Under the pieces are notes generated by a model. The model did not search any database. It was not told the DNA's origin and worked only from the letters and a program-made list of their open reading frames with translations. A stretch of DNA of 64,000 nucleotides from Euborellia annulipes (lineage: Eukaryota; Arthropoda; Insecta; Dermaptera; Anisolabididae). The stretch is from assembly GCA_023213315.1 (NCBI GenBank), contig JAKCPI010009509.1, positions 1-64,000 of the forward strand, read 5' to 3'. Below, piece after piece: positions 6,376 through 60,068 of this stretch. Each line of letters opens with the position of its first letter. The first letter of the stretch is position 1. The translations under genes were made by a program, and so were the position numbers.

Positions 6376-6426
6376 CGAGGACTGAGGATGGGCAAGTAAA
6401 ATTTTGTCCGAAACGTCTCCCTTTCG
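6376..6426 (+). ncRNA. Type I hammerhead ribozyme, minimal helix III
   Basis: Core CTGAGGA at 6382-6388 fits CUGANGA. Stem II is GGGC paired with GTCC (one G-U) around an AT-rich loop. GAAACGTC at 6410-6417 supplies the GAAA box and a GUC site with almost no helix III. Stem I pairs GGA with TCC and, after an internal loop, CGA with TCG. Predicted cleavage is between 6417 and 6418. Such hammerheads are known from Penelope-like retroelements and may act as dimers. Downstream lies a TTTATTTGCTGC tail shared with the copy at 4672-4718. Confidence 0.75.
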
Positions 6427-6501
6427 GCATTTGGGATCCAAAGGCTCTCTTTATTTGCTGCACCTGTACTAGCTGTCTTCCATTCCATAACATCAACAGC
6501 A

Positions 6502-7118
6502 ACTTCTCTTACCTTCGGTAATCGAAAGTTGTGTTCTGTGCTTGTCACACCGTGTCGACATATATTTAATTTCCGTCGGTATAGAAGAATTCAAGATGTA
6601 AAATTTATAAACATGGGAAAATATTTATATTTTGTAACCATGGCAACCATTTCTCCTATCTTTCCTATGAAGCACAAGAGTAAAGTGTGCTTCAAACAAT
6701 TTTGAGGGCAAAACGAGAATATACATTTGAAAGAGCATCTAAAAAATAATTGATTTTTGAATTTTAATCAAAATCGTTAGAGCGAATTTTGAGAAAATCG
6801 GAAAAAACTGAAAAAGTACATCAGTAAAGTACTAGTACTCTTTGGCCGATTTTGATTAAAAGCTTATTTTTCCGGTTCCGGGGGATGTTTAACTTATATA
6901 TAAAATTTCAGCCTCTTAGCTCAATTCCTTCATGCTTAAAATTGAACACACACACACCCACCCACCCACACACACACACAGACAGACCATGTCTCGAAAA
7001 CCAGATTCAGGGGACCTCAAAACGTGAAGATCCATCAAAATCTCGACATCGAATTTTTGACATGAATCCAATACTTTCTCTCTATATATATTGCATATAT
7101 ACATAGGTAAGAGAAAGT
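6502..7118 (+). mobile_element. Best copy of the ACTTTCTCTTACC-family element
   Basis: Starts ACTTCTCTTACC and ends GGTAAGAGAAAGT, so the termini are inverted repeats. Internal order: a TTCGGTAAT hairpin zone, TCGACATATATTTA, CATGGCAACCATTTC, TACATCAGTAAAGTACTAGT, a CACACACA/CAGACAGACC stretch, GGGGACCTCAAAACG and TCGACATCGAATTTTTGACATG. No transposase. At least fifteen full or partial copies occur in this window on both strands. Probably a non-autonomous DNA element; superfamily not determined because no clear target duplication was seen. Confidence 0.75.
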
Positions 7119-7919
7119 AAAAAGAAATCAGAAGTCTTATGGTGAAGGGGTGGGACAAATGCTCTCCTATGCTCCCATCTCCCCCTTAAATGAGGGCACT
7201 GCTTTCAGTGCACGCCTCTGAGGATCAACTTCTTTTCTTTTTGTACATGGATTCGACATCTAAAGAAAAAGAACAGAGACAGAAACAAATACTTAAAAAT
7301 AAAATAGTTATCTTACTTTTGCCAGTCAAAAAAAAAAAAAAAAATTCTAAAATCCTTTTGGTTTTTTTGTAAATATAAGTTTTTATTTTATCATTAGAAT
7401 TTTTAAACAACCAAGTTGGAATGTTCTTACTTAGTCTTTATCCCAAACAAACAGTGCTTAAAGATGTTAGAGCTAAGATCCATAGAAGAAAGGAGTGAGG
7501 AAAGTGTCAAATACTTTTTATATTGTGATAAATGGCTGAAGAAACTGTCCCGAGTTGACTTGAGCTTTCCTAATCTTCGGTTATACGTAGTCAGAGAAGA
7601 AGACTATTCTTAGTTAAGGGTAGGCCAGGCTGACAAACTATCCATCAACAACTTTATTACTATCTATAAGGCATCTATTTAGGCCTACTTACTTAGTAAA
7701 TTCGCTCAGAATTTTCTCAATTCAAATATATAATAGGGAAAAAAAAGTATTTTATTTTTATAATGTGAGGAATTAAATAAGTTTCTTATAATACCCGTAA
7801 AACCTACACCACTTTCCCTCAAAACTATAATAAAATAATTATATTTTGATATCATGGCAACCATTTTTTTATCTTTTCTATGAATACAAGAGTAAAGTGT
7901 GCTTTAAAAGTTTCTGATG

Positions 7920-8060
7920 CCAAAGATTAAGGGTTCGCATTCCGCCTCAGACGAAAAATTTATTTCGCTTGAATTGATACAATTCAATTGAAATAAATAG
8001 GGACTGAATTTAAATGACCTCGCATGCCGAAAAAGACTTTAAATAAATTAAAAAAAAAAA
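7920..8060 (+). repeat. SINE-like unit
   Basis: GGGTTCGCATTCCGCC resembles a Pol III B box. It is followed by a TTGAAATAAATAG block and the tail GCATGCCGAAAAAGAC with AAATAAAT. The block order recurs at 22188-22370 and 36478-36760, where the head is more clearly tRNA-like. Confidence 0.55.
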
Positions 8061-8399
8061 AAATCAAAATGGCCTCAGTAGCCGAAAAAAATATTATTTT
8101 AAAATTTTTGAAAAAAGTCGGTCATAAAAGTCGCAAAAGTCGTTTTTAAAAATCTCCAAAAACCTTTCTTTTTATGAGATCACTGGAGATGTCTAAGAAA
8201 ATCTGAAAAAGTCTCAAAATTGACAAAAGCCGAAAGACTTTTTTCCCGCTCTCTAATCAGCCCAAAATAATGTCTATAATAGGTCAAAAATGGTAATAGG
8301 TCTATGGAGTTATGATGCATTTAACTGGCCCGCAACATCATTTGGGATGGCCACCCCTGGTCTAGAGCACACTTGCAATACAACAAAAAATTGTAATAA

Positions 8400-8485
8400 A
8401 CTTGCCCGCCGAAGCACGGAGGTTCAGGGGATGCAGCCCCCTGGCTAGGCAGAAAGCCCTCCCAAGGCAGGCTTTCGGCTAGTAT
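8400..8485 (+). repeat. Family A head fragment
   Basis: CTTGCCCGCCGAAGCACGG followed by GCAGCCCCCTGGCTAGG and a G/C hairpin-rich stretch resembles the GC-rich head of 91-305 and 14235-14480. Confidence 0.45.
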
Positions 8486-8769
8486 GGTATATAATAATAA
8501 TAATATAATATAATGAGATAAAAATGAATATATTAAAATTTAGGGTATAGGGTATATTTATTTAATAGCTGGCAAAGTTTTTAACCAATAAATTATTCCC
8601 CCAGTGAATTAATTAAAATTTATAACATCCAAAGAAGAACTATGGATGAACTTTTTAGAGAATTTTTTTACTATAACTATCCAATATAGCTACTGAATGA
8701 TATAGTAAAAGATGGCCTGGAGGGGGGGGATGATTGGCAGCCGAGCCTAGTCTCCAAATGGCTAATAAG

Positions 8770-9010
8770 CAATTAGCGGCCGAGGGTGGCGTTGTCGGAG
8801 TCGGCGATGCTCGTCGGCTCTCTCCGGTTAAACCCGGACGTCGGCGTCGGCATCGGCGTCGCGCGCGCCCCTTTCAGTCTTTTTGAATCAAAGAACGAAC
8901 GGGACGGGGACGCTCAGTCCGGTTGCGACCGCGACGCGACGCGCAACAATGCGCGCTTGTGCTTTAAGTGGCTTAAGTGACTTGTTGAACAGAACTGACA
9001 GACACGGCGC
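8770..9010. promoter_or_regulatory. CpG-rich island, possible promoter
   Basis: About 240 bases are strikingly GC- and CpG-rich against a very AT-rich background, with repeated GTCGGC hexamers and GCGCGCGCCC. A 64-codon open frame (8786-8980, plus) is probably a by-product of the composition. Could be a promoter or first exon of a gene whose body is not visible, or a foreign segment. No core promoter motif identified. Confidence 0.35.
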
Positions 9011-9079
9011 TCTTGACGCTGCCATCAAAAAATAAGGTAGATAATTAAATTTCTCCAGATTAGATTCGGTATCCATGCT

Positions 9080-10730: not shown

Positions 10731-10732
10731 AA

Positions 10733-13398: not shown

Positions 13399-13534
13399 AT
13401 TTCTCTTTTTTTAGTTCAATTTAAATAAAATTAAAAGCATTTTTTACTTCCAAAGGTTTGTTATATAATATGTGTTGTGGCGGGATTCCCCGGGTCTCCC
13501 CTACTACATATATGATTGAATGCCTATATTGACA

Positions 13535-13589
13535 GCCCTCAACCTCTGAGGATGGTCTTAACCAAGACCGAAACGTCAGCATAGAGGGC
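13535..13589 (+). ncRNA. Type I hammerhead ribozyme, minimal helix III
   Basis: Stem I pairs GCCCTC (13535-13540) with GAGGGC (13584-13589), with an internal loop and inner CT/AG pairs. Core CTGAGGA fits CUGANGA. Stem II is GGTCTT/AAGACC with loop AACC. GAAACGTC (13570-13577) gives the GAAA box and GUC site; predicted cleavage is between 13577 and 13578. Downstream are AATAAA and TTTAGCTGCC. This is the most complete example in the window; all core bases are present. Confidence 0.85.
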
Positions 13590-13906
13590 CTAATAAATGA
13601 AATATATTTAGCTGCCATTCTTTTCTTTGCACACTAAAAAAATATTTTTTTTTGATAATTTTCATAGATGGTTTAATTAATCTTTATTTTACTGTGCAAC
13701 TTAAACTTTTGGAATTAAATTAGGAATATTAAGTAAACGAAAAGAAAATGTGCGAGGCTCTTAGATTGGTAGTTCTTATTTAAATTATAAAATGGGGATA
13801 ATTTAAGTTTATATAAATTATTATTATATTGAATAAAACGACATCCGGTACAAACTAAAAAAATTTTGCCCACTCAACACTGAAGTTTTTACTTTATTTA
13901 TTTATT

Positions 13907-13953
13907 CCGCACGGCTGACGTTGCGGTTCTGAGTTCGAACCATGTACAGAGCT
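13907..13953 (-). ncRNA. Decayed hammerhead copy
   Basis: Minus-strand relative of 14060-14109: the 3' side CCGCACGGCTGACG is kept, but the GAAAC box reads GCAAC and the CTGAAGA core reads CTGTACA. It forms an inverted pair with the intact copy about 100 bases away. Confidence 0.6.
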
Positions 13954-14059
13954 TCAGAACATATGTACCTGGTCATCGCATACTGTTTATATATTTAATA
14001 TATAAGAATTTGGTTCAATAATGTATAAAATCCACTATGACACTTTCATAATGACTTTT

Positions 14060-14109
14060 CGCCAGCTCTGAAGATGGTTCAAACACGGAACCGAAACGTC
14101 AGCCGTGCG
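14060..14109 (+). ncRNA. Type I hammerhead ribozyme, minimal helix III
   Basis: Stem I: CGC/GCG outer and GCT/AGC inner with an internal loop. Core CTGAAGA. Stem II GGTTC/GAACC with a 7-base loop. GAAACGTC (14093-14100), predicted cleavage between 14100 and 14101. Followed by AATAAA and TTAGCTGG. Same family as 14519-14570 and the decayed inverted copy at 13907. Confidence 0.82.
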
Positions 14110-14234
14110 GAATAAATCAATAAAGGAAAAACCTTAGCTGGATCTCTCATTTTCTACCCTCTTATTAATATAATATCACAGCTATAAATTGGATTTTATA
14201 CATTTTTAATATTATTATTATATATATTATAGTA

Positions 14235-14480
14235 TGACAAGTGGCCGCCTTCGGCTGGCTTTTCCACTTGCCAGGGGGCCTGCGCCACCTGGACTCCCTT
14301 GCTCGTCTTCGGCGAGCAATTTCAATAATATTAAAGTTTTAAATTTCCCTCTCTGATTTAGTTTTAAATCATTGACTCAACTTCCTTTTATTCTGGCCAA
14401 TCAGCGCCATGATAGGCACATACACGCAGGGACAGGAAGTCATCCCCTAGAGCTTTATGTTATAGTATGATGATGATAAT
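14235..14480 (+). repeat. GC-rich interspersed repeat, family A
   Basis: Second long copy of the family seen at 91-305: GCCTTCGGCTGGC, CCAGGGGGCCTGCGCC, a TTGCTCG...CGAGCAA hairpin, then TTAAATTTCCCTCTCTGA and an AGGCACATA block ending near GCTTTATGTTATAGTATGAT. Confidence 0.65.
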
Positions 14481-14518
14481 AAAAATGTTCAAAAAATCTA
14501 CACATTTATAAAGAAGTT

Positions 14519-14570
14519 TTGCCAGCTCTGAAGATGGTTCAATCATAGAACCGAAACGTCAGCTGTGCAA
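14519..14570 (+). ncRNA. Type I hammerhead ribozyme, minimal helix III
   Basis: Stem I: TTGC/GCAA outer, GCT/AGC inner. Core CTGAAGA. Stem II GGTTC/GAACC with loop AATCATA. GAAACGTC (14553-14560), predicted cleavage between 14560 and 14561. The stem I bases differ from 14060-14109 but remain paired, which supports a conserved RNA fold. AATAAA and a GGCTGC tail follow. Confidence 0.85.
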
Positions 14571-15349
14571 ATAGAATAAATATATTGTGTATAGGCCCTA
14601 AAGGGAAAAAAATATGGCTGCATTTTCTCATATCAATTAATATGACATCCCAGCTATACAATTGCGTTTTATTAAATAAAATATAATTTTGTATTAATTT
14701 TTTAACGGGAGAAGGGCAAATCGCATGGCTAATCCAAGGGCCAGTAGCCCGTTTACAGTGCAGAGCGGTATCTACCAATAATTTAAATTAATTGAATAAA
14801 TAACGGTTATCATTAAACTAATATCGAATATAAATATAATTCATTGTATTTATTGGAGAGATTGATTCGTTGTTCTCTTAGACGAATGCAGGGATTATAT
14901 TCAATTTTACTTTTCCTTGAAGGAAATTATTATTTTCATATAGCCTACAATTACTAATTAAAAGATGGAACTTTTTAAAATTATTTTTAAGAACAAATTT
15001 GGCCTCACTCTGTATTAAATGCTTATTTACTTTTCTCTCTAACAAAATGTACAAATCTGCCTTTTTTAATTGCATCAATCTATACAAATTAAAATGCTTT
15101 AATTGCGTTAAATTTAATTATATATTTTTTAGATTTTTTCACCCGTTATCTATCTATGTAATTAACGTAATAAAATTTTATATGTGGGTCATTCAAAGAG
15201 TCGAATTAACGTGATGCATGGGAGAGGGAAGCGAATTCTACAAAAATAAAACTTCAAAATTCAATCAATATTCATAATCAGGTGCAACAAATGCCTTTAT
15301 GTTATCAGTATTTACTTATTTATTTAGGCCCCTATGTTAAAAATATGGT

Positions 15350-16255: not shown

Positions 16256-16264
16256 CTTAAAAAC

Positions 16265-16325
16265 AGCCTAAGGGGTCGTATGAATCTGAAAAGCCGAAAC
16301 GTCAACCTGGCACGGCTTTAATAAA
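16265..16325 (+). ncRNA. Degenerate hammerhead relative
   Basis: GCCGAAACGTC (16293-16303) is followed by AATAAA and TTTAGCTGCC, matching the tail of the 13535 family. The upstream half lacks a good CTGANGA and stem II, so it is not expected to be active. Confidence 0.4.
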
Positions 16326-17749: not shown

Positions 17750-18182
17750 AATTTGTAGTCAAAAAATGAGAATATACATTTTAAAGATCATCTAAAAAAA
17801 TATTTTATAGTTAATTTATGAATTAAAAAAAAAAACTCGTTGAAGCCAATTTTGAGAAAATCGAAAAAAACTAAAAAAGTACATTAGTAAAGTACTAGTA
17901 CTTTTTGGCTGATTTCGTTTAAAAGCTTATTCACACGAGTTCGGAGGGTGCCAAACTTAACTATAAAATTTCAACCTCCTAGCTCATTTCCTTCATGGTC
18001 AAAAATGTCCACACACACAGACAAACACACACACCCCGACCAATTTGCGGAACCCACTTTTTTGAACTCAAGGGACCTCAAAACATGTATATCCATCAAA
18101 AAAATCTCCACATCGAATTTGGGACATGATCGCAATACTTTCTCTCTATATATATATTTCATATATAAGGTAAGAGAAAGTA
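17750..18182 (+). repeat. ACTTTCTCTTACC-family copy, 5' truncated
   Basis: Body from AATGAGAATATACATTTTAA through TTAGTAAAGTACTAGTACT to the terminal GGTAAGAGAAAGTA at about 18168-18182. Confidence 0.8.
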
Positions 18183-19743: not shown

Positions 19744-20159
19744 AGTAGAGGAGAGAGGAGACAAAACCCACCATTCTCTAAACTAATTTCATGTTAGTAT
19801 CCTATTTATTTTAATACAATGTAAAATCGTCAATTATTTGAGTATGAGTTAAATGTTGGATTATTCCTTTAAAATAGAGCTTCCTCTAGCCCAGGTATCT
19901 CTTTATTAGATTTAGACCCACTAGAGACATTTATTTATGGTGTAAAAAATAAAATAAATATATTTTGTAAAAAGGGTGTTGAATTTCGCGGGCCGCAAAA
20001 ATGTTCAAGGCGGACCAGAGGTTGGTCACTCCTGCTCTAGCTAATCGAAACGCTTGTGGACATCTGGCAAGGAATTATTTTATCATTTAATTTTTTTAAA
20101 TAATTTTTAATTTATTATTTGACAAATAATAATTATAGTGAAAAGAGCAGGAATAGTTA

Positions 20160-20470
20160 GAAATAAAAGCCTCCGTTTGCTTCAATCAATCGAGACGTTT
20201 CGGGTCAATTTTATTTTCCCATCTTCAGTCTTTCAACACTGTCTCGGTTCCTGGTGTTAGTTATAGGAACACAATACGCACATGAACAGGATTGTGAGTA
20301 AATTTTGCCCGCAATGTTGTCTCTCGTTTATTTTGTTAGAACAAAATACTGTTAATATGCATGTATTGTGGTCCTATAATTAACCACGGTAGCGAAGATA
20401 ATGTTTAAAGATTAAAGATGGAACAATAAAACCCGAAACGTCTCGATTGGTTCGAGGCTTTTATTTCTGG
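20160..20470. repeat. Inverted pair with hammerhead motifs at both ends
   Basis: AAATAAAAGCCT...CGAGACGTTTCGGG at the left is mirrored by CCCGAAACGTCTCG...CTTTTATTTCTGGC at the right, with about 170 bases between. The hammerhead-like cores point outward on opposite strands. Confidence 0.7.
20185..20237 (-). ncRNA. Hammerhead ribozyme-like motif
   Basis: Minus strand: CTGAAGA (20228-20222), stem II GGG/CCC around an AT-rich loop, GAAACGTC (20201-20194). The core is intact. Stem I is weak (GA/TC plus a short outer AA/TT), so the fold is less certain than at 13535. The plus-strand partner near 20411 has a mutated core (TTAAAGA). Confidence 0.55.
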
Positions 20471-21779
20471 CTGCTTTTGCACTTTTCACTATACAACGAT
20501 TACAGGCATTAGCAAAATTAGAATAATTTTTATTTTTTATTTATTAAATATCTTTTTCGGCACAAAAAACGGCGTCCCAGTTGAGCTTTGCCCCCCCCCC
20601 CCCTCCCTCAAAGGCTAGTTACGCCGCTGTCAGATTATTCAACTTAGAGCCTACTAAAAATTATTTTAATGCTTTATTAATTTGTGGAATCTAAAAATAT
20701 ATTTATTTTCTTTAATTCCTTCTGAGAAACAATGGATGACGTCATTCTCCAAACCGGTCTCGATTGCTTAGAAACAGGTTATTGAAATAATTAACGAGAT
20801 GTCATCAAAGTTTGTCAAGAGAAATAATCATATACGTATATTTCAAATTGGCATATCAAATAAAGTTTTTTTATATTCCATCAAAAAATGAATTATTTAT
20901 TTTTGAATTGAAAATTTAATTTTTTTTTTCTTTTAATAGGTTAGTTTTATATTTTAATTATAATAAAAAAAGAAATATTAATGAATAATATTGGCGGGAT
21001 CCCTTGATGCCTTGGCGGGCTAGGCTAACAACAAGAAAGGCTTTAACCAATCAGAAGCCGAGAAAATTGTTACGTCACTCAACAAGCGGTATTTCAGTCT
21101 GGTCGACATCTCCTTTATTAGTTGAATTTGAGATAGTGAAGTGTTAACATAATGTTAGTGTTTGTGATTGTGTGTATATCAAGACAACCCTTTCATTTCA
21201 TCTCTTCACATTAAATAGTGAGTAAAATTAATATTATTTATTTATCTGGACCATTTATTATAAAAATACAAGTGTATTATACGTGTAAATAGAATTTAGA
21301 ATAAAGGTTAATTAGTTCATCCGAGTCACCGCCAGGATGGCGCCAGCGTACGGCTCTTTATTAAATTTACTCTTTGCCCTTGTCATGGGCTCTTGTGCGC
21401 TTTGAAATTCTCAGAATGTTTAAGAATCTATTAAAATTTACACAGAAGAAGGAAATGAACTTGAATCTTTCATAATAAATGGACCATGTTTAATTAAAAT
21501 AATAATATTTGCACAAATTTAACAGAAGGTTCTTAAAAACGTTTGCTGTTTTGTTTCTTCCGAAATCATATCTTATTCCTTTTATTTTTTACTTTCTTTT
21601 AAGATTACAAGCCCCCTAAAAGCTCGTTTAAAATTTTATTGCCCTTATCAAATTATTATTTTAAAATTTTTTTCTTCTTTTGCGACATATATACTAATAA
21701 ACTGAGAGAAGACGAGAAGATAATATCTGAAATAGGTTTACAATGCCAGCTGGTCAATTCTCAATTTTATTCTATTATC

Positions 21780-22794: not shown

Positions 22795-23525
22795 AAAAAA
22801 ATCTCGACATCGAATTTTTGACATGATCGCAATACTTTCTCTCTCTATAGATTTCATATATAGGCTAAGAGAAAGTAAAAATCTGGTGTGAATGTCTCAC
22901 AGCACACAACTTTCTCTTACCTTCTGTAATCGAAAATTGTGTTCTGTTCTTGTCACACCAGATTTTTTGTCTCGACACATAGACCTAATTATTTTAGACG
23001 GTATAGTAGAATTCAAGATGTAAGATGTCTACAGACACATATACAGAAACCATTTTGCGAGAAGACCCACTTTTTTGAACTCAGAGGACCTCAAAACATG
23101 TATTTCTATCAAAATCTTGACATCGAATTTTTTATATGAATTGAATACTTTCTCTCTATATTAATATATTTATTAACATATACAGTATATATAGATAAGA
23201 GGAAGTAAAAATCAGATTTTTTGTCTCGACATATATTTAGTTCCCGACAGTACGAAACATTTGAATTCAGAGGCAAAATGAGAATATACATTTTAAAGAG
23301 CATCTAAAAAATAATTGATTTATGAATTTAAAAAAAATTTGAGAAAATCGAAAAAACTGAAAAAGTACATCAGTAAAGTACTAGTACTCTTTGGCCGAAT
23401 TTAATCAAAAGCTTATTTTCACGCTCACGGGGTGTGTTTAACTTATATATAAAATTTCAGTCCCATAGCTCAATTCCTTCATGCTTAAAATTGAACATCC
23501 ACCCACCCACAGACAGACCACCATA
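22795..23525 (+). repeat. Cluster of three ACTTTCTCTTACC-family pieces
   Basis: A 3' tail (22795-22878), an internally deleted copy with both ends (22908-23208) and a 5'-truncated copy (23215-23525) lie head to tail, each in plus orientation. Confidence 0.75.
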
Positions 23526-23879: not shown

Positions 23880-24065
23880 GGCCAAAATTATTGTGACGTT
23901 TCGGTTAAGAGCTGGAGGCGAGAATAAATGAAATTTTAATTTTGAATGAAAAATGACAATTTTAATTTTGAAATTAAAATTTCATTTATTCTCGCCTCCG
24001 GCCTTGAAGATGGCCTAGACTAGTGGCCTAAACGTCACAATTAAAGAAATAATTTTGGCTGAGTT
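23880..24065. repeat. Palindrome with degenerate hammerhead ends
   Basis: CCAAAATTATTGTGACGTTT at the left mirrors AAACGTCACAATTAAAG at the right, with GGAGGCGAGAATAAATG and its complement nearer the middle. The plus-strand half has TTGAAGA, GGCC/GGCC and TAAACGTC: the hammerhead layout with two core changes, so it is probably inactive. Confidence 0.6.
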
Positions 24066-32441: not shown

Positions 32442-33918
32442 TTATCGAGGGCCGACAATATTTCTATTATTTGCTTTTTCTCGGGAATGAATACGTGAAT
32501 GTCTGTTGAGATTAGATTTTATATTAAATTGTTTAGAACAAATATCACATTTATATTCTTTTAGACCAGAATGAATACGTAAATGTTGGATGAGATGACA
32601 TTTTTGATTGAATTGTTTAGAACAAATATCACATTTATATTGTTTTAGGCCAGAATGAATAACTAAATGTCGATTTAAACTGTTTTTGAAATTAAATTGT
32701 TTTGAACAAATATCACATTTATATTCTTTTTGGCCTGAATGAATACGTAAATGTTGGATGAGATAACATTTTTGATTGAATTGTTTAGAACAAATATCAC
32801 ATTTATATTCTTTTAGGCCAGAATGAATAGGTAAATGTCTTTTGAGTTGACATTTTTGATTGAATTGTTTTGCACAAATGTCACATTTATATTCTTTTAG
32901 GCCAGAATGAATACGTAATAAATGTTTGTTGAGATAACATTTTTGATTGAATTGTTTAGAACAAATATCACATTTATATTCTTTTTTACCAGAATGTGTA
33001 ATTAAATGTGTGTTGAGATTAAATTTTCTGTTAAATTGTTTAGAACAAATATTACATATGTGAGTTCTCTTCGAATGTATTCTTTTGTTGGCGAATGATG
33101 TTTTCAAATTCTTCTTTTTAGAATTTGATTGAGAATTTTCCTTATCATTTTTCTTGAATTCGTCCTTCTTGCTTTTCTCTAAAGTTTCTTCTTTTTCTGA
33201 AAATGAAATATATTAATCAAAAATAAAAAATATAAAATAAAATGAATACAAATTATCAATTGCATTACGTTTACCTTTTTTTGATCGTTTTTTGATGAAA
33301 TCAAAATTTCTTTTGTCCATGCTTTGTATAACGTTTAATAAACATTTTTTAGAATGCTTCCATAGAAAATATAAATTTATAAAGTTGGTTTTACAAAAAA
33401 TACATGGGAAGACTGGACCTATTGGAAAAACAAATGAAATTGAAAAAGAATTAAACAAAATATGTGTCTGTGAATTAATTTTTATGGAAGCTTAAAACCC
33501 TCAAATAAGAAAAATTCTATTTTAAAGTCGGCAAGTGTTTATCCTTATCTTTGAGGGCTTCTAAAGTATTTATTGATGGTGACAAAGAAGTCGGCACCAA
33601 CGTTTATATAAAATGAATAAATATTATTTGGAGAGAGTTGCTGTTTATGTTTAGAAATATGCAAAGGCAAATAGGGCTGCAGCAAAAACAAAGCCTTTGG
33701 ATGCCAAATGCCGAAGGAATCGTTTCGGATGTGAATTTGTCTACGCGTAGACAATGTATGTAGACAAATAAACAATATCCATGTAGACAAAGTAGACAAT
33801 TAAAATTTAAAAATTTGGCGGGACTAACAACACCATAATTTTTTATGTATAGTCATAAATATAATTTTTAGATACTAATATACACGAAATCAATAGGTAA
33901 AGAGTGATTTGAACAATT

Positions 33919-33966: not shown

Positions 33967-34573
33967 TAGTGTTCGTAACTAATTCATTAAAATGTCTGTT
34001 TATTGGTTAGTTCCACGTTTAGACATTTTTATGTATATGAATTTCTAGGCTGTTTCTAGAAATGACAGATCACTGATCTGAGATGAGAGCCAATGAAAAC
34101 AAGCGCTGACACATTTGTCTACATTGTCTACATCTTTGTCTACATTATGAAGTAGACAAATCAAAATATACTTAATTTGCCCAACACTGTTTAGAAATAT
34201 GCAAAAGCAAGTAGGGCTGCAGCAAAAACAAAGCCTTTGGATGCCAAATGCCGAAGGAATAGTTTCGGATGAAATTGTATTTGTCCATCTTCATTTCTTA
34301 TAGGCTTGAGATCTTTTCAAAAATATATATATAAGCCTTTGAGGACTATGAGATGGACAAATAAAATTTCATGCAAAATTTTCTTTCGGCATTAAAAGCA
34401 CAAAGGAATAAATTAATTTATGTAAACGTACGATTATGTGATTTAAAAAGAAAACGAATTACTACAAATAAATGAAAGATGAGATTGAGGTTATAAAATA
34501 AAAATAAATTACCAATATGAATGGGGTATTTGATATCATGGTTTGAAATGTCTTCTTGCTTGATCAAAGACAT
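32442..34573 (-). CDS. C2H2 zinc-finger protein, three exons, 343 aa
   Basis: Join of exons 34573-34513, 33490-33275 and 33196-32442 (minus). The ATG at 34573 opens a peptide starting MSLIKQEDISNH. Introns are 1022 and 78 bp, both GT-AG and both phase 1; the summed CDS is 1032 nt with TAA at 32444-32442. Exon 3 encodes seven tandem C2H2 fingers (about residues 140-329) with CDICSKQF signatures and unusual HSG(L/K/Q)KEYK linkers instead of TGEKP; finger 2 has H-X4-H spacing. Exon 2 holds a possible C-X2-C-X12-H-X3-C finger (C50, C53, H66, C70), and a Lys/Ser-rich linker follows. Likely a nuclear DNA-binding regulator; target unknown. All fingers are intact, suggesting a young or selected gene. 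Exon 3 is certain to be open; exons 1-2 are inferred from splice signals and phase. It lies wholly inside the hAT-like element 31839-35698. Confidence 0.75.
33649..34270 (+). repeat. 82-bp direct duplication flanking an insert, in intron 1
   Basis: 33649-33730 and 34189-34270 differ at only a few positions; both include GGGCTGCAGCAAAAACAAAG and TGCCGAAGGAAT. The 458-bp insert has TTTGTCTAC near its left and GTAGACAAA near its right end and an (AT)n run at 33925-33959. The duplicated part resembles the tail of the 4672/6376 hammerhead family, here with the GAAACGTC lost. Confidence 0.7.
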
Positions 34574-35879: not shown

Positions 35880-36256
35880 TGGCCATAGAAATACGCGATT
35901 TCCTTTTATGAGTACAAACTCGGCCATTCCGCTGCCATAAAGCAAGGAATATTAATCATGCGTTTGGTGAAGAAAGTTCTAATGAAAGAACCATCCGTCG
36001 TTGGTTTACAAAATTTTCTTCCGAAGATACGACGCTAGACGCCCCCGTCGACACCCTGACGTTCGTTCAGCTTGTGCGGAACCCAGGAATCTAGCTCTTT
36101 TACCTTTCCAATCAATTTTAAATGCCTGGAAACTGTCTTATGATTTGTGCCTAGCTTTGACGCAAGTTCTCTGACTGTCCACAGCTTTTTTAAGATCTTC
36201 GTCGTCCAGGCAGCCTGGGAGTTTGTACTCTTAAAAAAAAATTGTTCGGAACACAC
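35880..36256. pseudogene. Mariner transposase remnant with inverted inner block
   Basis: Plus strand 35880-36040 encodes, with a frameshift near 35910, the mariner N-terminal helix-turn-helix region (ARNINHAFGEES, ERTIRRWFTKF). The next expected part (TVRELASKLG, KTVSRHLKLIGKVKEL, SWVPHKLNE) lies on the minus strand at 36256-36041. The order is that of one transposase, but the second block is flipped. The catalytic DD(D) region is absent. Non-functional. Confidence 0.85.
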
Positions 36257-36477
36257 GCGTTTCCATGGTCACGATCCACTATAAAGATTAAGATTTAAAA
36301 AATCAGACATTTCATGTCATACAACCCAATATTTTATTCAAACTTCAGCCCTCTTAGGATAGAACCTATTTCTGATATGTTAAATTCAAAAACAATTTTA
36401 GTAACTACTTCCACACTTACTAAATGGAAATATCCATTGCAAACAAAAGAAAGTGATCCCCCCTCCACGTGGCCCAG

Positions 36478-37487: not shown

Positions 37488-37689
37488 ATTTATAAAATCG
37501 CAACATAATTATACGAATATTTCATATATAAATACCGTATAATATAAAATCCACATACATTTTGGATTTGTCTACTAAAAAAAAAATAATTTTTTACTTT
37601 AAGCGTGAAGGAAATGAGCTACGAGATTGAAATGTTATAATTAAGTTAGTTAATTTCCTAAGTCGTGAAAATATGCTTTTTAAACAAAA

Positions 37690-38175
37690 TAGGCCAAAAA
37701 ACACTAATACTTTACTGATGTACTTTTTCAGTTTTTTTTTCGATTTTCTCAAAATTAGCTCCAACAATTTTGTTTAAAATTCATAAATCAATTATTTTTT
37801 ACATGCTCTTTAAAATGTAAATTCTCATTTTGCCCTTGTAATCTTTTGAAGTACACTTTACTCTTGTACTTCATAGGATTGGAAATGGTTGCCATGGAAA
37901 CAGAGTATAAATGTTTTCCCATTTTGATTAAAATTAATAAATCAACTATTTTTTTAGATGCCCTTTAAAAATTATATCATTAAAATTTTTCGTGGAAATT
38001 GTTTGAAGTATAAATACAATTTACTGATGTATTTCAGATTTTTACCTATGAAATTCATGTGGTCAAGTTTGGAAGTGAGGTGCTATGGGAAACTAAATAT
38101 ATGTCGACACAAAAATCTGGTGTGACACCGAAGGGTAAGAGAAAGTTGTGTGCCGTACGTTAGTGACACCAGATT
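37690..38175 (-). repeat. ACTTTCTCTTACC-family copy
   Basis: From ACTAATACTTTACTGATGTA through CATGGAAACAGAGTATAAA to the hairpin terminus with GGTAAGAGAAAGTTGTG and a flanking CACCAGATTTTT. Confidence 0.8.
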
Positions 38176-39309: not shown

Positions 39310-39735
39310 CGTTTTACGTCTCTGGTTGGTTCCTAACTTAAATATAAAATTTCAACCCCCTAGCTCTTTTCGTTCTTCCATGTTGCGAAAACCACTTTTT
39401 TAGACTCAGGGGACCACAAAACGGATATATCCATCGACATCGAATTTTTGACATGAATCCAATATTTTCTATATATAGGGGAGAGGGAGGACATTGGGAC
39501 ACGAGGCACATTGGGACATTCGAATTTTAGCTCTACTAAATATAAAGTTTGAGTTGTACTTTTTGACCGTTAGGGTGCATTAAGTACCCATTTTATTAAG
39601 AAAAAATTTTCTATAATAAAATGGGCACATTTAGTAGAGATAAAATTCGAATGTCCCAATGTGCCTCGTGTCCCAATGTCCCCCCTGTCCCCTACATATA
39701 TATTCCCTTAACTAAGAGAAAGTAAAAAGTAATTT
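39310..39735 (+). repeat. ACTTTCTCTTACC-family 3' part split by a TIR element
   Basis: ACTTAAATATAAAATTTCAA to the CTATATA zone at 39477, resuming at 39693 and ending AAGAGAAAGTAAAA. The gap is the element 39478-39692. Confidence 0.75.
39478..39692. mobile_element. Fold-back TIR element, 215 bp
   Basis: Left GGGGAGAGGGAGGACATTGG and the complementary right end CCCCCTGTCCCC share about 60 bp of inverted repeat with internal GACACGAGGCACATTGGGAC. It sits in a TATATA stretch of the host repeat, so a TA duplication is probable. Too short to encode anything. Confidence 0.85.
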
Positions 39736-40627: not shown

Positions 40628-40960
40628 TTTAACCCTGATTGTTTTTACATTACTTTTTAACCCCCATTTGTTTAATTTAAATTTTAACGTCTGTTTTTAG
40701 AGAATAGACCTGAATAAGCTTTTGATCAAAATCGGCCAAAAAGTACTAGTACTCTACTAATGTACTTTTTCACTTTTTTTCAAAGTTTGCTCCGATTTTA
40801 ATTAAAAGTCAAAAACCAATTATTTTTTAGATGCTCTTTAAAATGTATATTCTCATTTTTGCCCTTAAAATCTTATGAAGACCACTTTACTCTTGAACTT
40901 CATAGGAAAAATAAGAGAAATGATTGACATGGTAGCAAAATATAAATATTTTCCCATGTT
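40628..40960 (-). repeat. Adjacent fragments of two TIR families
   Basis: 40628-40712 matches, inverted, the left end of 46973-47559 (TTTTAACGTCTGTTTTTAG, AGAATAGACCTG). 40713-40960 is a minus-strand fragment of the ACTTTCTCTTACC family. Confidence 0.65.
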
Positions 40961-40973
40961 TTTACACCCCAAT

Positions 40974-42710: not shown

Positions 42711-42763
42711 CTTTGAAGGCTGAAGATGGCAGGGTTGATCCCAGCCGAAACGTCCCAATAAAG
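42711..42763 (+). ncRNA. Type I hammerhead ribozyme, minimal helix III
   Basis: Stem I: CTTT/AAAG outer and GG/CC inner. Core CTGAAGA (42720-42726). Stem II GGC-A-GGG paired with CCC-A-GCC, loop TTGAT. GAAACGTC (42747-42754), predicted cleavage between 42754 and 42755. Followed by AATAAAGG and a TTTGGCTG tail. All core positions intact. Confidence 0.82.
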
Positions 42764-42880
42764 GGTGTTTATTACTAAATAGAGGCTCAATTATTTGGCT
42801 GTATCCTCTTTCATATTAAACATGTCAGCTACAGCCACGATCTCTTATTCAATTTATTAATTTTTGTATGCATCGCTTTG

Positions 42881-42930
42881 TCGTCCAATGCATTGAAGAT
42901 GGGAGCGAAGCGTTCTCGAAACGTCAACGA
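42881..42930 (+). ncRNA. Hammerhead-like motif, C3 mutated
   Basis: TTGAAGA replaces CTGAAGA. Stem II GGGAGC/GTTCTC pairs with G-U wobbles, and GAAACGTC at 42918-42925 is intact. Stem I is poor. Loss of C3 should abolish cleavage. Confidence 0.5.
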
Positions 42931-42954
42931 AAATAATTTGAGAATTTTTTCTTT

Positions 42955-48224: not shown

Positions 48225-48715
48225 AAGTTCCAAACTTGACCACGCGATACATAGATGGCGCTGAGCTATGAATGCTTCCACATCAGTAAAGTGTACTTCA
48301 AACAATTTCCACGAAAAATTTCACTGATATACTTTTTAAAGAGGATCTAAAAAATAGTAGATTTATGAATTTTAAACAAAATCGTTGTAGCGAATTTTGA
48401 GAAAATCGAAAAAAAGTATTTCAGTAAAGTACTAGTACTTTTTGGAAGATTTTGTTTAAAAGCTTATTTTCACGACTTGGGAGGTTACCTAACTGAAATA
48501 TAAAATTTCAACCTCGTAACTCATTTCCTTCATGCTTAAAAATGTCCACACACATACAGACGAATTTGCGGCACCCACTTTTTTGGACTCAGGGGACCTC
48601 AAAACATGTATTTCCATCAAAATCTGGTGTGACAAGCACACACAGTACACAACTTCCAATTATCAAAGAAAAGAAAAATATGTGTGCTGTGTGACCAGTC
48701 ACACCAGATTTTTCT
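48225..48715 (+). repeat. ACTTTCTCTTACC-family copy
   Basis: Body with TTTCAGTAAAGTACTAGTAC, CACACACATACAGACG and GGGGACCTCAAAACATG. At 48622 it runs into a second hairpin-type end (TCTGGTGTGAC...GTCACACCAGATT). Confidence 0.75.
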
Positions 48716-49554: not shown

Positions 49555-50585
49555 ATTTTTCTGTCGAGATTTATTTAGTTTCTGCTGATATAATAGAATT
49601 CAAAATGTAATATTTATATATATGGGAAAATATTCAGGGGCGCCGGAACGAATTTGAATCAGGGGGGGGGGCAAAATTTTTTTTTAGAAATTTAAAATAA
49701 TTTAATATGTTCAAATAAAACAAATCTACTATAAAGCTTTAAAAATTTTAAATAAAATCACAATTTTAATAAAATTAAAATTTTTAAAAATTTGCTAGTG
49801 ATTTTATCAAAAATTTTTTTAGGTTATATAGTAGATTTGTTTTATTATATTTGAAGGGAATAAATATTTTTAATTTTTTCTTTTAATTCAATATAAAATG
49901 TTTTTTGAAGTTAGAAATACAATAGGGTCTATAAAATATTTTGGAAAAAATGAATTTCTTACTCTTTTAATTTTTTTAATTTAAAAGATTTTATTTTTAA
50001 AAATTAAAAATGTATCGTTTTTAAAAATAAATGAAATAAAAGAAGACATATCGCCCCACTCTGTCCCCTCTTATAGGAAGCCAGGGGGGGCAACGTACCC
50101 TTGCCCCCCCCAGTTCCGGCTCCTATGAAAATATTTATATTTTTTTACCATGGCCTATGAAGTACAAGAGTAATTGAGTAAATTGTGCTTCAAACAACTT
50201 TGAGAGCAAAATAAGAATATACATTTTAAAGAGGATCTAAAAAATAATTGATTTTTTTAGTTTTAATCAAAATCGTTAAATTTTGCAAAAAACTGAAAAA
50301 GTACATCAGTAAAATACTAGTACTTTCTGGCCGATTTTGTTCAAACGCTTATTTTCACCCCCCCCCTGGCTTTAAATATAAAATTTCAACTTTTTAGATC
50401 AATTACCAATTCCTTCATGCTTTAAATTGACTCACAGACAGACGAATTTGATGAACCCACTATTTTTGGACTCAGGGACCTCAAAACATGTATTTCCATG
50501 AAAATCTGACCATCGAATTTTTGCTATGAATCCAATGCTTTCTCTCTCTATATATTAAGATATATATATAGGTAAGAGAAAGTAA
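49555..50585 (+). repeat. ACTTTCTCTTACC-family copy split by a hAT insertion
   Basis: 5' part 49555-49634 and 3' part 50128-50585, ending GGTAAGAGAAAGTAA, join across AAAATATT as in 6502-7118. Confidence 0.85.
49635..50127. mobile_element. hAT-type non-autonomous element, 493 bp, 8-bp TSD
   Basis: Left CAGGGGCGCCGGAAC, right GTTCCGGCTCCTATG. Flanks 49627-49634 and 50128-50135 are both AAAATATT, and removal restores the host repeat. G/C runs inside both ends; interior extremely AT-rich. Confidence 0.9.
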
Positions 50586-53094: not shown

Positions 53095-53470
53095 AATTTA
53101 AATCGGTAACATTAAAAGTATGTAAAATTAATTCAAAACACTCGCTATAACCTCATCATTTGAAGTCCAGTGAGCCATTTCTCTATATTTGGGAAGAGGA
53201 AGTAATCATTGGATGCCAAATCCGGTGAGAACGGCGGATGTAAAAGTAATTCGAAGCGTAGGTCATGTAATTTTGTAGTAACAGTGTGCAAGCCTATTAT
53301 CGAGGGAAAAGAACACTTTCTTGAATACCGTAGGCATGACTTTCTCTGCAGATGCAACTGTTTTCGCTTTCTTTGCTAGACTTTCACCTTCTTCCATCCA
53401 CTGTTTGGACTGATGCTTCGTCTCTGGCGTTTAAAGTCGAATCCATGTTTGATCTACTGTTTTAAAAAGA
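53095..53470 (-). pseudogene. Mariner transposase C-terminal remnant
   Basis: Reading down from 53470 in shifting frames: QTWIR, TPETKHQSKQW, KKAKTVASAEKVM, then after a gap KLHDLRFELLLHPPFSPDLA and NDYFLFPNIEKWL. These are hallmark segments of mariner transposases in the right order, including the HPPxSPDL block next to the last catalytic Asp. Several frameshifts and a missing central section show it is dead. Confidence 0.88.
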
Positions 53471-54312: not shown

Positions 54313-54314
54313 TA

Positions 54315-56620: not shown

Positions 56621-56636
56621 TGCGTTATTTCATACA

Positions 56637-56690
56637 CTTGGCGACGTTTCGGCCTTCATCAGGACATTAAAATACCTGGTATAATGAATT
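56637..56690 (-). ncRNA. Hammerhead-like motif lacking stem II
   Basis: Minus strand: CTGATGA, then only AGGCC, then GAAACGTCG. Both core boxes are perfect but stem II has collapsed to a loopless GGCC. A relative with further changes lies at 32045-32075 (minus). Weak or no activity expected. Confidence 0.5.
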
Positions 56691-56799
56691 TATCGGCATC
56701 TGCTACTTTGAGTTGCCAAGAGCCCCTCTTAGCTTTAGGCAAACATAGCACTTGCAATTCGTCTTCTTTTCTCACTCGTTAATATGATAACTGCATAAA

Positions 56800-58095
56800 A
56801 GAAAAAAAAATCTCGACATCGAATTTTTGACATGAATCAAATATATAGGGTAATAGAATAGAGGTTCCTTGTTTAACGGCTTACTATGGGGTAAAAATTT
56901 TATTATAAACAGTAAATTTGACGAATAACATTTAAATATAAAGAACAAATAAATTGCCTAAAGAATAAATTTTTATTTGGAGTCAAAAAATAAAATTTTA
57001 TAGAAAATTCTCAATATTGTCATATTCAATATATAAGTTTACTATGGTATTTGGAAAAATACTGGAGAAAAATTCCTTAGCTGTTTGTACTGTTATCACA
57101 TTCGAATGAATAAACTCCTTAAACCTGTTCTACTTCTACTCAGAAAGGTGAAAATATTTTATAAACTCTCTTGCGGAAAATCATTTTTTTTCCCTATAAA
57201 ATATTCAATAAAAGAAAATTTTCAATTCGTCTTCGATTTTTTTTTTTTTTTATTACAGTAGTCATTTTATTTTTTATAGAGATTTGATCTCTGTATATAT
57301 TTTTATACAAATTTAATCAATAATTATTTTGGAGATGCCAATCAACTTAATCAGTTTAAATACGATGGAAGTTTGAAAATAAAAAGCGAGATAATTTTGA
57401 GTAAACACTTTTATGGTAAGAAAATGGAGCTCGGAAAAGCATTTCGCTCGGTTTGTTTTACTTCGTTTAGCCAATAATTGATGGCATTCTAAAAAGCATA
57501 TAAAAAATTCTTTGCCACCTTTATTTTATGAATGTAAGTAATCGGTATCTGATAATCGATATTTTTCTTCGCTTTTTACCCCCTTTGTCTCCTGGGTTAA
57601 AGTCAATATTCTTTTAAGAGATTCTATAAGAAACGAGTATGGAAATGGTTAGCTCATTTTTTTAAATTATACTTTAGTAAATTATTATACTCTGTATATT
57701 GAGACATGAGATGTCTTTTCGATATTTTTTATAAAGAGATAAAAAAAATTCCCATAGATGAGATGTAGGTTTAATTAAGGTTATATCAATATTTTCGAAC
57801 GATAGCTACCTCCGGAAAAGTTGACTCATACTGAACAAGTCTACATTTGGGAACCACCAAAACCTACAATCTTCAGACTTTCAAGTCTAACCTCAACAGG
57901 CATCTTCTCAGTTCCCGCAGTTGAGTTTCCCCTTTTAAAAAAAAAAAAAACTTTTTCTTGGTGTCCCGAAAAATGGCCCACGAAAAAACGCCTCCTGCAA
58001 CAAATTCTTCTCATATAAGCCTATTCTCATATCCTATTTTATCAATATAATAATAGGTAGGTTTGGGAGACCTTATTCAGTCAGTTTAAAGAAAC
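56800..58095. other. Gene-free AT-rich interval
   Basis: Starts with a short 3' fragment of the ACTTTCTCTTACC family (TCGACATCGAATTTTTGACA). No gene recognised in the rest. Confidence 0.4.
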
Positions 58096-58140
58096 AAAAT
58101 ATATTTCAAAATTATATCTTATTTAATTTATTAATTTTTC

Positions 58141-58193
58141 TTCCTCATACCACAGGTTTCGACCGTTTTGCCGCAGGCCTTCCTCAGTGAGAA
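58141..58193 (-). ncRNA. Hammerhead ribozyme with GUA site and real helix III
   Basis: Minus strand: stem I TTCTCA/TGAGGAA (one bulge), core CTGAGGA (58187-58181), stem II GGCC/GGTC (one G-U) plus loop, GAAA, then helix III AC/GU closed by loop CTGTG and a GUA cleavage site at 58150-58148. Predicted cleavage is between 58148 and 58147. Unlike the GAAACGTC group, helix III here has a proper loop, so it could fold alone. Confidence 0.7.
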
Positions 58194-58515
58194 TAGAGTC
58201 AAATTTGTGGATGCATTACAAAAAAAATAATTAAAATACAATACACAATTGTTAAGATGTCACACCTATAATTGTGTGTTCATCAACAAAGATCCAGATC
58301 TCTATCTATATGTGCGCCAGCAATGCATTTAATTTTTCGGGCAGTCGATTTGTTTTGGAAAGAATTATTTTTCAGAAAACTATTTAAAGACATCTGGGCT
58401 CGAAATTTAAATAGTTTTTTGAAAGTCTGGATCTTTGTTGATGCTCACACAATTATAGGTATGACATCTTAACAATCATGTATTGTATTTTAATAATTCC
58501 ACAAAATTGACTCTC

Positions 58516-58569
58516 TTCTCACTGAGGAAGACCTGCGGGACAACGGTCTAGACCTGTGGTATGAGGGAG
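58516..58569 (+). ncRNA. Mutated partner of the 58141 hammerhead
   Basis: Core CTGAGGA, stem II GACC/GGTC and stem I TTCTCA/TGAGGGA are kept, but the GAAAC box reads TAGAC, which should abolish cleavage. Confidence 0.65.
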
Positions 58570-58714
58570 AAAAATTAAAAAATAAATAAGATATATTTTT
58601 CAAATATACAGGATGAGGCATAATAAAAGGCTGTTAAGTAAAAACACTTCTTTAAAATATATCATAAAATTAAAATACATGAAAAAGCATTTTCCGCAAT
58701 AGTAAAAACATCGT

Positions 58715-58853
58715 TTAATTTTTGAAGATAACTCCGGTAAGATGGCGTCCATTTAGACGCACATATTTCTCCAGCCGAACCTTGAAGTGACTCATTACAT
58801 TGCGCAGCATTGATTTGAACAACTTCCTATCGGAATCGCACTTTCAGGGCTTC
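58715..58853 (-). pseudogene. Transposase C-terminal remnant
   Basis: Minus-strand frame reading FKSMLRNVMSHFKVRLEKY then VRLNGRHLTGVIFKN and a stop at 58715. The spacing of LRNVM, RLEKY and NGRHL before the stop resembles the C-terminus of arthropod IS630/Tc1-mariner-type transposases; this is family knowledge, not a search result. The upstream part is degraded. Confidence 0.5.
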
Positions 58854-58949
58854 AATTTTTCGAGGAGGGTTAAACTGATTTTCAGATAAGTTAAATCGAC
58901 AGTCCTGGATGAGTGCAAATCTATTTTATAATTTTTAAGCACGCTCCAC

Positions 58950-59020
58950 ATTTGAATAATTTGAGACACTGAAGAAGGGATGCGTTATGCAATCCGAAAT
59001 ATTTGCTAAATAAATTATTT
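58950..59020 (+). ncRNA. Hammerhead-like motif, GAAAT variant
   Basis: CTGAAGA at 58969-58975, stem II GGATGC paired with GCAATCC (one bulge), then GAAATATTTGC. AATAATTT and AAATTATT can pair as an outer stem. Same variant as 3059, also followed by AATAAA or AATTAAAG. Confidence 0.4.
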
Positions 59021-59504
59021 TACTGTGGAATCGCTGGTTTATTTTCCCTATTAACCATATTGAATCGCCCCAGCATACTTAATTTCATCTAATCTTGCCA
59101 TATATGTTATATTATCTTTCTAATATGTTTCTGTTTATTTTTTTTATTCCATCCACAGGATCGATTTTAAGAAATGCTAGAAAATGTACTAAAGAAAAAA
59201 AAACAAAAAAATAAATCAATAAGGTAAATATAAATTTTTAACCTTTCTTTCTTTTTCTCTAATGAAAGAAGGCCTCAAGATAACATCTCTCTGTCAATCT
59301 CTCCCTTCGCCCTTCTAATAAAACTTTTCGAAGGGCCACAATCTTGATGAAACATGGAATCAATATGATATCAGTAAAGGCCATCTTGGGCCAAAGCGTT
59401 TACGAAGGGAGGATGGACGATTTCGGAACTGACTCCCCTGAAAAACTATTTATGTGTATCTTGGAGAAAATTTAAAACATATGTCTTGTCTGTTTTTTTT
59501 TTTA

Positions 59505-59690
59505 ACAAACAAATAGCCGAAAAAAGATAGGGTGCCGCAGGGAGTTAACCTACCGATTTGTACTCAGTATGCCCTACCACTGGAGCAGAGCACGGCATTT
59601 GAATTCAAATAACCGAATAGCGTGCTGTGTGTGGTCTAGTTGTAAGACATACTGAGTATAATCAGGTAGATCAGTGCCTCTATTGTTTAA
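59505..59690. repeat. Second tRNA-like fold-back element
   Basis: CAAATAGCCGAAAAAAGAT, GAGTTAACC, GCCCTACCACTGG and the central GAATTCAAATAACCGAATAG match 31289-31605. The plus half has GTGGTCTAGTTGTAAGAC. Arms are more decayed and the right end is lost. Confidence 0.65.
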
Positions 59691-60019
59691 AAGTAGGTAC
59701 AAGTTTAAAAAAATAAAAAATACATAACATAAGAGAACTGCAGTAATATTATCTAATTATTTTCATGAATTGGATAAGGGATGGAGGAGGTGGGGGGGGG
59801 GGGGAATTCAACTCTTCTAAATCCTTCACAAAAAATATTTCCAAGAATTTTTCCCTTTGTACTCTAATTTGTTTAATTTATAAAAAACATTTCTTATATC
59901 AATATATTCGAATTTTTTCTTTAAAAAATATATGTACATAATGACCACTAACAGTTATGATTTTCATTCTGTATTAATGATTGTAAAACTATATTTATAA
60001 AAGAAAAATGTTTCATTGT

Positions 60020-60068
60020 TTATAGCTCCGAGGATGACTTTGACCAAAGTCGAAACGTCATCTGTTAG
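60020..60068 (+). ncRNA. Hammerhead-like motif, U4 to C
   Basis: CCGAGGA (60028-60034), perfect stem II GACTTT/AAAGTC with loop GACC, GAAACGTC (60052-60059). Stem I is weak. Only one core base deviates. Confidence 0.55.

Follow-up and report, generated by a model that had tools for sequence, protein, structure and literature searches.

How does a stretch of insect DNA come to carry many hammerhead ribozymes without any visible reverse transcriptase (RT)? The question is raised by the first 64,000 nucleotides of contig JAKCPI010009509.1 of Euborellia annulipes (Dermaptera; assembly GCA_023213315.1), a stretch hereafter called the window, in which a first-pass annotation had noticed numerous hammerhead loci resembling those of Penelope-like elements (PLEs). 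We consider it likely that these sites are the hammerheads of RT-less Penelope-like copies, built as head-to-head palindromes with a one-sided tail and produced by two-strand priming with the proteins of resident PLEs.

Hammerhead ribozymes in the window

The descriptor CTGANGAN{6,30}GAAAC matched the window seven times against 0.30 expected from 100 shuffles, and a strict pattern, requiring the exact core, a stem II of at least 3 bp and GAAACGTH, matched six times against none in 300 order-2 Markov simulated windows. The covariance search suggested by the first-pass annotation was run with a model, R1, trained on 32 hammerheads from other contigs of the same genome and none from the window, so that the window counts as an independent test. 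R1, whose E-values are rough, reported 14 sites below E=0.02, of which ten reached E≤2.4e-5. The three loci that had been singled out are matched at 13538–13586, 14520–14569 and 42712–42763, all among the top five. Thus, exact searches and R1 both bear out the many hammerhead loci that had been proposed; the estimate of at least eight families is right when sites are grouped by eye, and the density put at about one per 4 kb comes to about one per 4.6 kb with all 14 R1 sites counted. The window is denser than the genome average, with one strict match per 10.7 kb versus one per 39 kb genome-wide.

In structure, the window sites are hammerheads of type I whose helix III is minimal. The CUGANGA and GAAA core is accompanied by stem I, stem II and a UH cleavage site; helix III is absent within one molecule and self-complementary for dimers, with GAAACGUC present in the six strict window matches. 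By eye, helix III variants are AUAU, in the window site at 3051 and in locus L096 elsewhere in the genome, and ACUAUAGU, in L101; exceptions to the minimal form are the window element P4 and locus L095, with a 3-bp stem III, and L097, with probably a short one. Some window sites are decayed, namely those at 4713 (core CTAAGGA), 16270 (half lost) and 58522 (GAAA lost). Separately, three IMG/VR viral contigs (L002, L005 and L014) carry type I hammerheads in which stem III, judged by eye, is long; their R1 E-values are ~1e-4 to 1e-5.

The compensating stem I changes described earlier (CGC/GCG, TTGC/GCAA and GCCCTC/GAGGGC) are indeed present, and they belong to a wider pattern. Across 71 distinct hammerheads from loci L016–L101 and the window, falling into 23 families, stem I position 1 is paired in all 23 and draws on all four Watson–Crick types (shuffled mean 9.9), and position 2 is paired in 22. 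Positions I.3 and I.4 and stem II positions 3 to 6 are also above the shuffled expectation (p 0.013 or less); II.1 and II.2 are nearly invariant and therefore hold little information on covariation. In the 32-sequence alignment, 88.2% of cells pair versus 57.8% after shuffling and 20–48% with slid partners, and the covariation score is 0.704 versus 0.165 shuffled.

Genome-wide count and palindromic arrangement

Across all 25,949 contigs of the genome (903 Mb), 23,138 matches to the strict pattern were counted, 11,661 forward and 11,477 reverse, a lower bound because the pattern is strict; the reversed-pattern control gave none. Partners were sought around 59 distinct strict sites taken in listing order (L016–L045 and L075–L094), an inverted partner being accepted within 1.5 kb at a score of at least 50 (null maximum 31). 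Such a partner was found for 52 of the 59, and all 52 pairs face outward; a direct partner was found for two, both weak. The two arms are 70–99% identical, and the sample comprises at least 23 ribozyme families. Most sampled ribozymes are therefore outward-facing inverted pairs inside palindromic elements, a feature that goes beyond the first-pass annotation. The sampled elements (123–1050 bp) and the window element P1 (~1.9 kb) are too short for an RT open reading frame (ORF). Pseudo-long terminal repeats (pLTRs) in direct and/or inverted orientation, head to head, as expected of PLEs, were found in the window pairs, in the sample and in the RT-bearing locus L095.

These counts bear on two other explanations. 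Chance matches or assembly artefacts might be suspected in AT-rich eukaryotic sequence, the more so as amplified libraries can generate inverted repeats. The simulations (0 of 300), the reversed pattern (0 matches versus 23,138), the divergence of the arms and the target-site duplications (TSDs) that flank many elements leave this explanation a negligible probability. Retrozymes, short tandem direct repeats that carry type I hammerheads and move via circular RNAs, share with the present copies that they are short, dispersed and non-autonomous and bear that ribozyme type (PMC7229834). Animal retrozymes are, however, described in the available part of that source as tandem repeats with canonical hammerheads; direct tandem repeats of ~170–400 bp with hammerheads were not found in the sample, where direct partners are as scarce (2/59) as inverted outward ones are common (52/59), and we regard a retrozyme origin as very unlikely.

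Four inverted-repeat pairs with outward-facing ribozymes lie in the window: P1 (4622–6484), P2 (13885–14132), P3 (20134–20493) and P4 (58100–58608). The sites and element parts are as follows.

3051–3103, forward: hammerhead of the GAAAUAUU type, self-complementary AUAU replacing ACGU (by eye); R1 E=0.016; related to L096:552–600
4622–4875, reverse: P1 inverted, tail-less arm; decayed hammerhead 4669–4721, core CTAAGGA; R1 E=2.9e-8; 85% inverted match to right arm
6220–6484, forward: P1 direct arm; hammerhead 6374–6426; R1 49.3 bits, E=3.3e-11
6455–6502, forward: P1 terminal stem TTGCTG...CAGCAA, extending into the one-sided tail past 6484
13538–13586, forward: hammerhead, stem I GCCCTC/GAGGGC; R1 E=3.5e-10; inverted partner not found within 4 kb
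13885–13957 (arm 13885–13953), reverse: P2 inverted arm; decayed hammerhead 13908–13957; R1 E=0.0059
14060–14132 (arm 14064–14132), forward: P2 direct arm; hammerhead 14060–14109; R1 E=3.7e-11
14135–14184, forward: P2 terminal stem TAGCTG...CAGCTA
14520–14569, forward: second P2-family hammerhead, direct; R1 E=1.8e-10; 83% to 14040–14122
16262–16310, forward: hammerhead remnant, 5' core lost; GAAACGTC at 16296; 3' part resembles 13564–13617; no R1 match
20134–20296, reverse: P3 inverted arm; hammerhead 20185–20236; R1 E=1e-9
20342–20493, forward: P3 direct arm; decayed hammerhead 20404–20451; R1 E=0.0068
23895–24036, no overall strand: P5, a 49-bp hairpin (23907–24005) with half a hammerhead on the reverse strand (GAAACGTC, 23895–23902) and a hammerhead on the forward strand (24005–24036, R1 E=6.8e-4)
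42712–42763, forward: hammerhead, stem I CUCUUU/AAAGGG; R1 E=7.8e-10; partial inverted partner ~4 kb off, none nearer
42796–42837, forward: terminal stem TGGCTG...CAGCCA of the 42712 element; L024 family
42885–42934, forward: hammerhead, core TTGAAGA; R1 E=2.4e-5; no clear partner
56634–56670, reverse: very short hammerhead-like site CTGATGAAGGCCGAAACGTC; R1 E=5.1e-6; no partner; function doubtful because stem II is almost without a loop
58100–58298, reverse: P4 inverted arm; type I hammerhead 58144–58195 with 3-bp stem III (ACC UGU GGU) by eye; R1 E=0.56
58426–58608, forward: P4 other arm; hammerhead core lost, TAGA replacing GAAA
58961–59012, forward: decayed hammerhead-like site of the GAAAUAUU type; R1 E=0.49; 84% to L096:554–601
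59923–60132, forward: PLE 3' end with hammerhead 60020–60068; R1 E=1.7e-6; no clear inverted partner

The poor R1 score of the P4 inverted arm is explained by the fact that R1 has no stem III; the 3-bp stem III of this arm resembles that of the autonomous copy L095. The tail of P1 resembles those of L084, L088 and L092; CAGCAA was not found at the left end of P1, so that its terminal stem is on the tail side only, and a Pfam scan of the P1 interior in five of the six frames returned nothing at E≤0.1. Two further hairpin palindromes were noted, at 34247–34393, with a very decayed hammerhead-like site (R1 E=0.29), and at 39470–39700, with no R1 match. Rfam matches of microRNA type over P2 and P4 were rejected as microRNAs; they look like hairpin matches to the palindromes.

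Element ends, one-sided tails and a covarying terminal stem

The search for TSDs covered, at each end of the palindrome, positions from slightly within it up to 60 nt beyond it, with a score >10, the 97th percentile of 306 swapped-flank trials, as threshold. Among 51 elements, which include some duplicated loci and four window elements, 24 exceed it; a separate comparison gave 24 of 42 elements versus 11 of 210 swapped. The matched length is variable (9–20 nt). In 20 of the 24 elements with a TSD, one end coincides with that of the palindrome and the second is 16–37 nt farther out. The remaining four comprise one that is flush at both ends (L042) and three others (L035, L055 and window P3). 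Use of the same start site at both ends would leave both flush, which was seen only in L042. Tails are 10–37 nt long with a median of 29 (24 elements with a TSD score of at least 9), in keeping with the optional 30–40-bp tail of PLEs. In seven sets of elements sharing one ribozyme, the distance from ribozyme to outer end is 59–73 nt in 14 of 18 elements (26, 55, 75 and 83 in the others) and the total length ranges from 123 to 774; the narrow spread of the former and the wide spread of the latter indicate that the ends are more fixed than the centre.

The inverted repeats and flanking TSDs might also call to mind terminal-inverted-repeat DNA transposons, similar to miniature inverted-repeat transposable elements, that carry hammerheads incidentally. 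Instead of the symmetric ends and fixed TSD length of such transposons, the elements have a unique tail on one end, TSDs of variable length and a centre that varies more than the ends, and elements of the same build with RT and GIY-YIG domains exist in this genome; on these structural grounds we give this explanation hardly any credence. By contrast, the origin from type I, minimal-helix-III PLEs proposed in the first-pass annotation gains support from the inverted pLTR pair, the one-sided tail and the TSD.

The tail carries a recognisable box, CAGC[N]A, on one side in 30 of 47 elements and on both sides in one. An arm of 26 of the 30 one-sided elements, representing 22 distinct cases, contains the counterpart T[N]GCTG, and in all 22 of these the variable bases of T[N]GCTG/CAGC[N']A form a pair (8 A-U, 8 G-C, 3 U-A and 3 G-U). 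The 19 Watson–Crick pairs compare with 8.4 after shuffling, and the maximum in 5000 shuffles is 16. The window itself holds three versions of this stem, TTGCTG/CAGCAA in P1, TAGCTG/CAGCTA in P2 and TGGCTG/CAGCCA in the element at 42712; it was not found at 14 of the 17 window sites examined. A search for the longest arm–tail stem gave a weak overall contrast, with at least 6 bp in 18 of 24 elements versus 41% of swapped pairs and 8 of 24 on the tail-less side; the informative test is the position-specific one. The terminal stem has its two halves on either side of the tail-less end. The one-sided tail and the covarying terminal stem together suggest priming from both DNA strands at two sites of the RNA.

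Autonomous Penelope-like relatives in the genome

A GIY-YIG profile search of the genome, in which 150 of 710 candidates were scored, yielded at least 118 matches over the cut-off among those 150. One of the loci, L095, has an 825-amino-acid ORF with an RVT_1 match (E=1.5e-8) in addition to the GIY-YIG domain; among its 19 homologs the best is 53% identical, and the two that are named by species are insect proteins. On its 5' side L095 carries an inverted pLTR that is 100% identical to the direct pLTR over 159 bp and to the 3' pLTR over 147 bp. By eye, the inverted and 3' pLTRs each bear a hammerhead whose stem III is 3 bp long; the 3' end contains TGGCTG...CAGCCA.

Locus L098 comprises the 3' region of a different GIY-YIG ORF; it carries GAAACGUC (R1 E=3e-9) and matches the window at 59976–60132 (80% over 168 bp, E=4.7e-36) and 59923–59970 (83% over 48 bp). 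These RT- and GIY-YIG-bearing copies of the same genome, and the match of the L098 ribozyme region to the window, further support the Penelope-like origin. Among the six 3' regions, R1 was strong for L096 and L098 and weak for L101 (E=0.012); by eye, the hammerhead of L097 is plausible and that of L100 doubtful. The strong L096 hammerhead pair may be a separate palindromic insertion. The best GIY-YIG match, L099 (G000:C21118:23550–24950), looks by eye like a bacterial UvrC-like protein, which we presume it to be, rather than a PLE; the assembly thus probably holds at least one bacterial contig. Among the matches listed, neighbouring GIY-YIG matches on opposite strands within 6 kb face outward in nine cases and inward in none, and the other neighbours are one inward pair 9.3 kb apart and two same-strand pairs.

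The statement that no RT is visible in the window held. Neither RT nor GIY-YIG was found in the whole window by tblastn with the 825-amino-acid ORF of L095 and 3' pieces of other copies, and a Pfam scan of pieces covering part of the window found neither. The combination of RT and GIY-YIG, which other copies in the genome possess, was thus not found here, and the window sites are PLE derivatives, either non-autonomous or truncated, rather than complete elements. We infer that the short copies were mobilised by resident PLEs.

A possible insertion route

A typical copy would consist of an inverted and a direct pLTR that meet head to head and point their 3' ends outward. Each pLTR would have its type I hammerhead ~60–70 nt from the outer end; a 16–37-nt tail would be present on one side only, and the copy would often be flanked by a TSD. 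Resident PLE proteins may supply RT and the GIY-YIG endonuclease in trans. Both strands of the target DNA would be cut, and both would prime reverse transcription of pLTR RNA, one at the distal end of the terminal stem-loop, leaving the tail, and the other within the loop, ~30 nt upstream. The resulting cDNAs would then meet in the middle. Because ACGU is self-complementary, ribozyme cleavage probably takes place in a dimer formed by two RNAs; by eye, the variants AUAU and ACUAUAGU that occupy helix III elsewhere are self-complementary too, in accord with dimer cleavage, and such cleavage is reported for other PLEs in studies cited by PMC7761336.

Part of this route has been observed in vitro for PAc, a Poseidon element of Anolis carolinensis, which cuts and extends both strands and uses two RT start sites that bound the tail (PMC11167929). 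A different route was proposed for the Penelope elements of Adineta vaga on the basis of head-to-head repeats and junction palindromes (PMC3846280), namely self-priming, in which one cDNA (or antisense RNA) doubles back on itself where a palindrome lies close to the 5' end of the pLTR and is then copied, so that priming at the target involves one strand only. The near-perfect central palindrome common to many family A elements (by eye) agrees with this proposal. Fold-back alone, however, does not account for the ~30 nt by which the tail-less end falls short of the tailed one in 20 of 24 elements, and, by eye, the tail arm is short in L045 and long in L028, an observation that a central deletion after insertion could also produce. 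We regard self-priming as the less probable route.

Within two-strand priming, a more speculative and rather improbable idea is that the dimeric hammerhead is a template-pairing device, such that pLTR RNAs paired through stem III (ACGU, AUAU or ACUAUAGU) load into a dimeric PLE protein. If this were true, each RNA would prime one target strand, one of them from the distal start site and one from the proximal. Far from being an aberration, the head-to-head pairs and their one-sided tail would represent the regular outcome of PLE insertion, and the ribozyme would set up and then release the RNA dimer.

Several observations weigh against RT-less Penelope-like copies made by two-strand priming. 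As regards the ribozymes, self-cleavage in the window is a prediction from sequence, and R1 gave only E=0.19 for the hammerheads of L095. An Rfam scan of the window at the gathering threshold reported no hammerheads, and in evalue mode no hammerhead family was named over the window or on 13500–14620 and 58100–58610. Rfam at the gathering threshold was equally silent on the three IMG/VR loci with sound-looking hammerheads (by eye), so that its silence is weak evidence, the control covering the gathering threshold only. As regards arrangement, seven of the 59 sampled ribozymes have no inverted partner, and in the window no clear one was found within 4 kb of 13546, 16270, 42893, 56662 and 60028. 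The two arms may come from one template or from two, a question on which comparisons of arms with each other and with other elements say little: among elements with a relative scoring at least 100, an element's own arms are closer to each other in 6 and another element is closer in 21, a count that disfavours the own arms, since they compete with the top scorer of many elements. Concerning the ends, 27 of 51 elements have no TSD above the threshold, the highest single swapped-flank score (17) equals the best real one, and the window copies look old, only P3 passing the threshold with TSD positions that are uninterpretable. The tail box is on neither side in 16 of 47 elements, for which age is a possible, unproven, explanation; L029 and one L086 element fall outside the T[N]GCTG pattern, having ACGCTGG with CCCAGCATA, in which GCTGG can pair with CCAGC, and L079 has a tail with CGGCC. 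Finally, the in vitro start sites of PAc are alike on both strands (PMC11167929), so that the one-sidedness seen here is not predicted.

Relation to known Penelope-like systems

The comparisons with published systems refer to the available parts of the papers cited. Minimal type I hammerheads are known in PLEs and dispersed in animal genomes (PMC7229834, PMC7761336), and the present ribozymes share with them the type I fold, the lack of a usable helix III, the proposed dimer cleavage, the thousands of dispersed copies and the link to pLTRs. Those are described as tandem copies or dispersed motifs, whereas here 52 of 59 are outward inverted pairs, many with a one-sided tail. Inverted pLTRs and tails were also known (PMC3846280, PMC8969392). 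In Adineta vaga, Penelope has inverted and direct pLTRs, head-to-head being the most frequent arrangement, an optional 31-bp tail on one pLTR and TSDs of 8–10 bp, all comparable to what is seen here, and a few solo-pLTR inserts without the Penelope ORF recall the RT-less copies (PMC3846280). The differences are that the term hammerhead is absent from PMC3846280, whereas at least 23 ribozyme families were sampled here, and that the elements sampled here cannot accommodate an RT ORF. With PAc they share the hammerhead, an AC-rich stem-loop and a tail lying between two RT start sites; cutting and extension of both strands is observed for PAc and proposed here (PMC11167929). The strands of PAc behave alike in vitro, whereas 20 of 24 natural copies here use one site per end, and the part of PMC11167929 available did not contain the covarying T[N]GCTG/CAGC[N']A stem.

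Among the literature matches listed, searched as titles and abstract openings, neither ribozyme-bearing PLE palindromes as a dominant genomic form nor a covarying PLE terminal stem was found, which leaves their absence unproven. The scale, the one-sided tail and the covarying stem thus appear to be new. The mode of PLE insertion, the frequent inversion of pLTRs and the purpose of the hammerhead are treated as open questions in the available text of PMC11167929, PMC3846280 and PMC7761336. With more than 23,000 strict ribozyme copies and a sample that consists mostly of fossil two-ended insertions, such questions become testable by counting, as start sites, tail asymmetry, junctions and terminal-stem covariation can be read from sequence.

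Other features of the window

The window also holds a dispersed, high-copy repeat, a few hundred bp long and seemingly without relation to the ribozyme elements, which is found again downstream of the GIY-YIG match in L100. Its copies in the window are as follows.

4944–5290, 6711–7100, 17764–18165, 23276–23520, 48319–48622, 50209–50565 and 62145–62462: high-copy repeat
37598–37966 and 40713–40964, reverse: high-copy repeat

Possible mariner-like transposase fragments were noted by eye on the reverse strand at 36038–36268 and 53148–53375; Pfam gave no match for the latter and weak helix-turn-helix matches for the former. A C2H2 zinc-finger array with an 84-bp period occupies 32442–33107 on the reverse strand, and its best species-named relatives are insect proteins.

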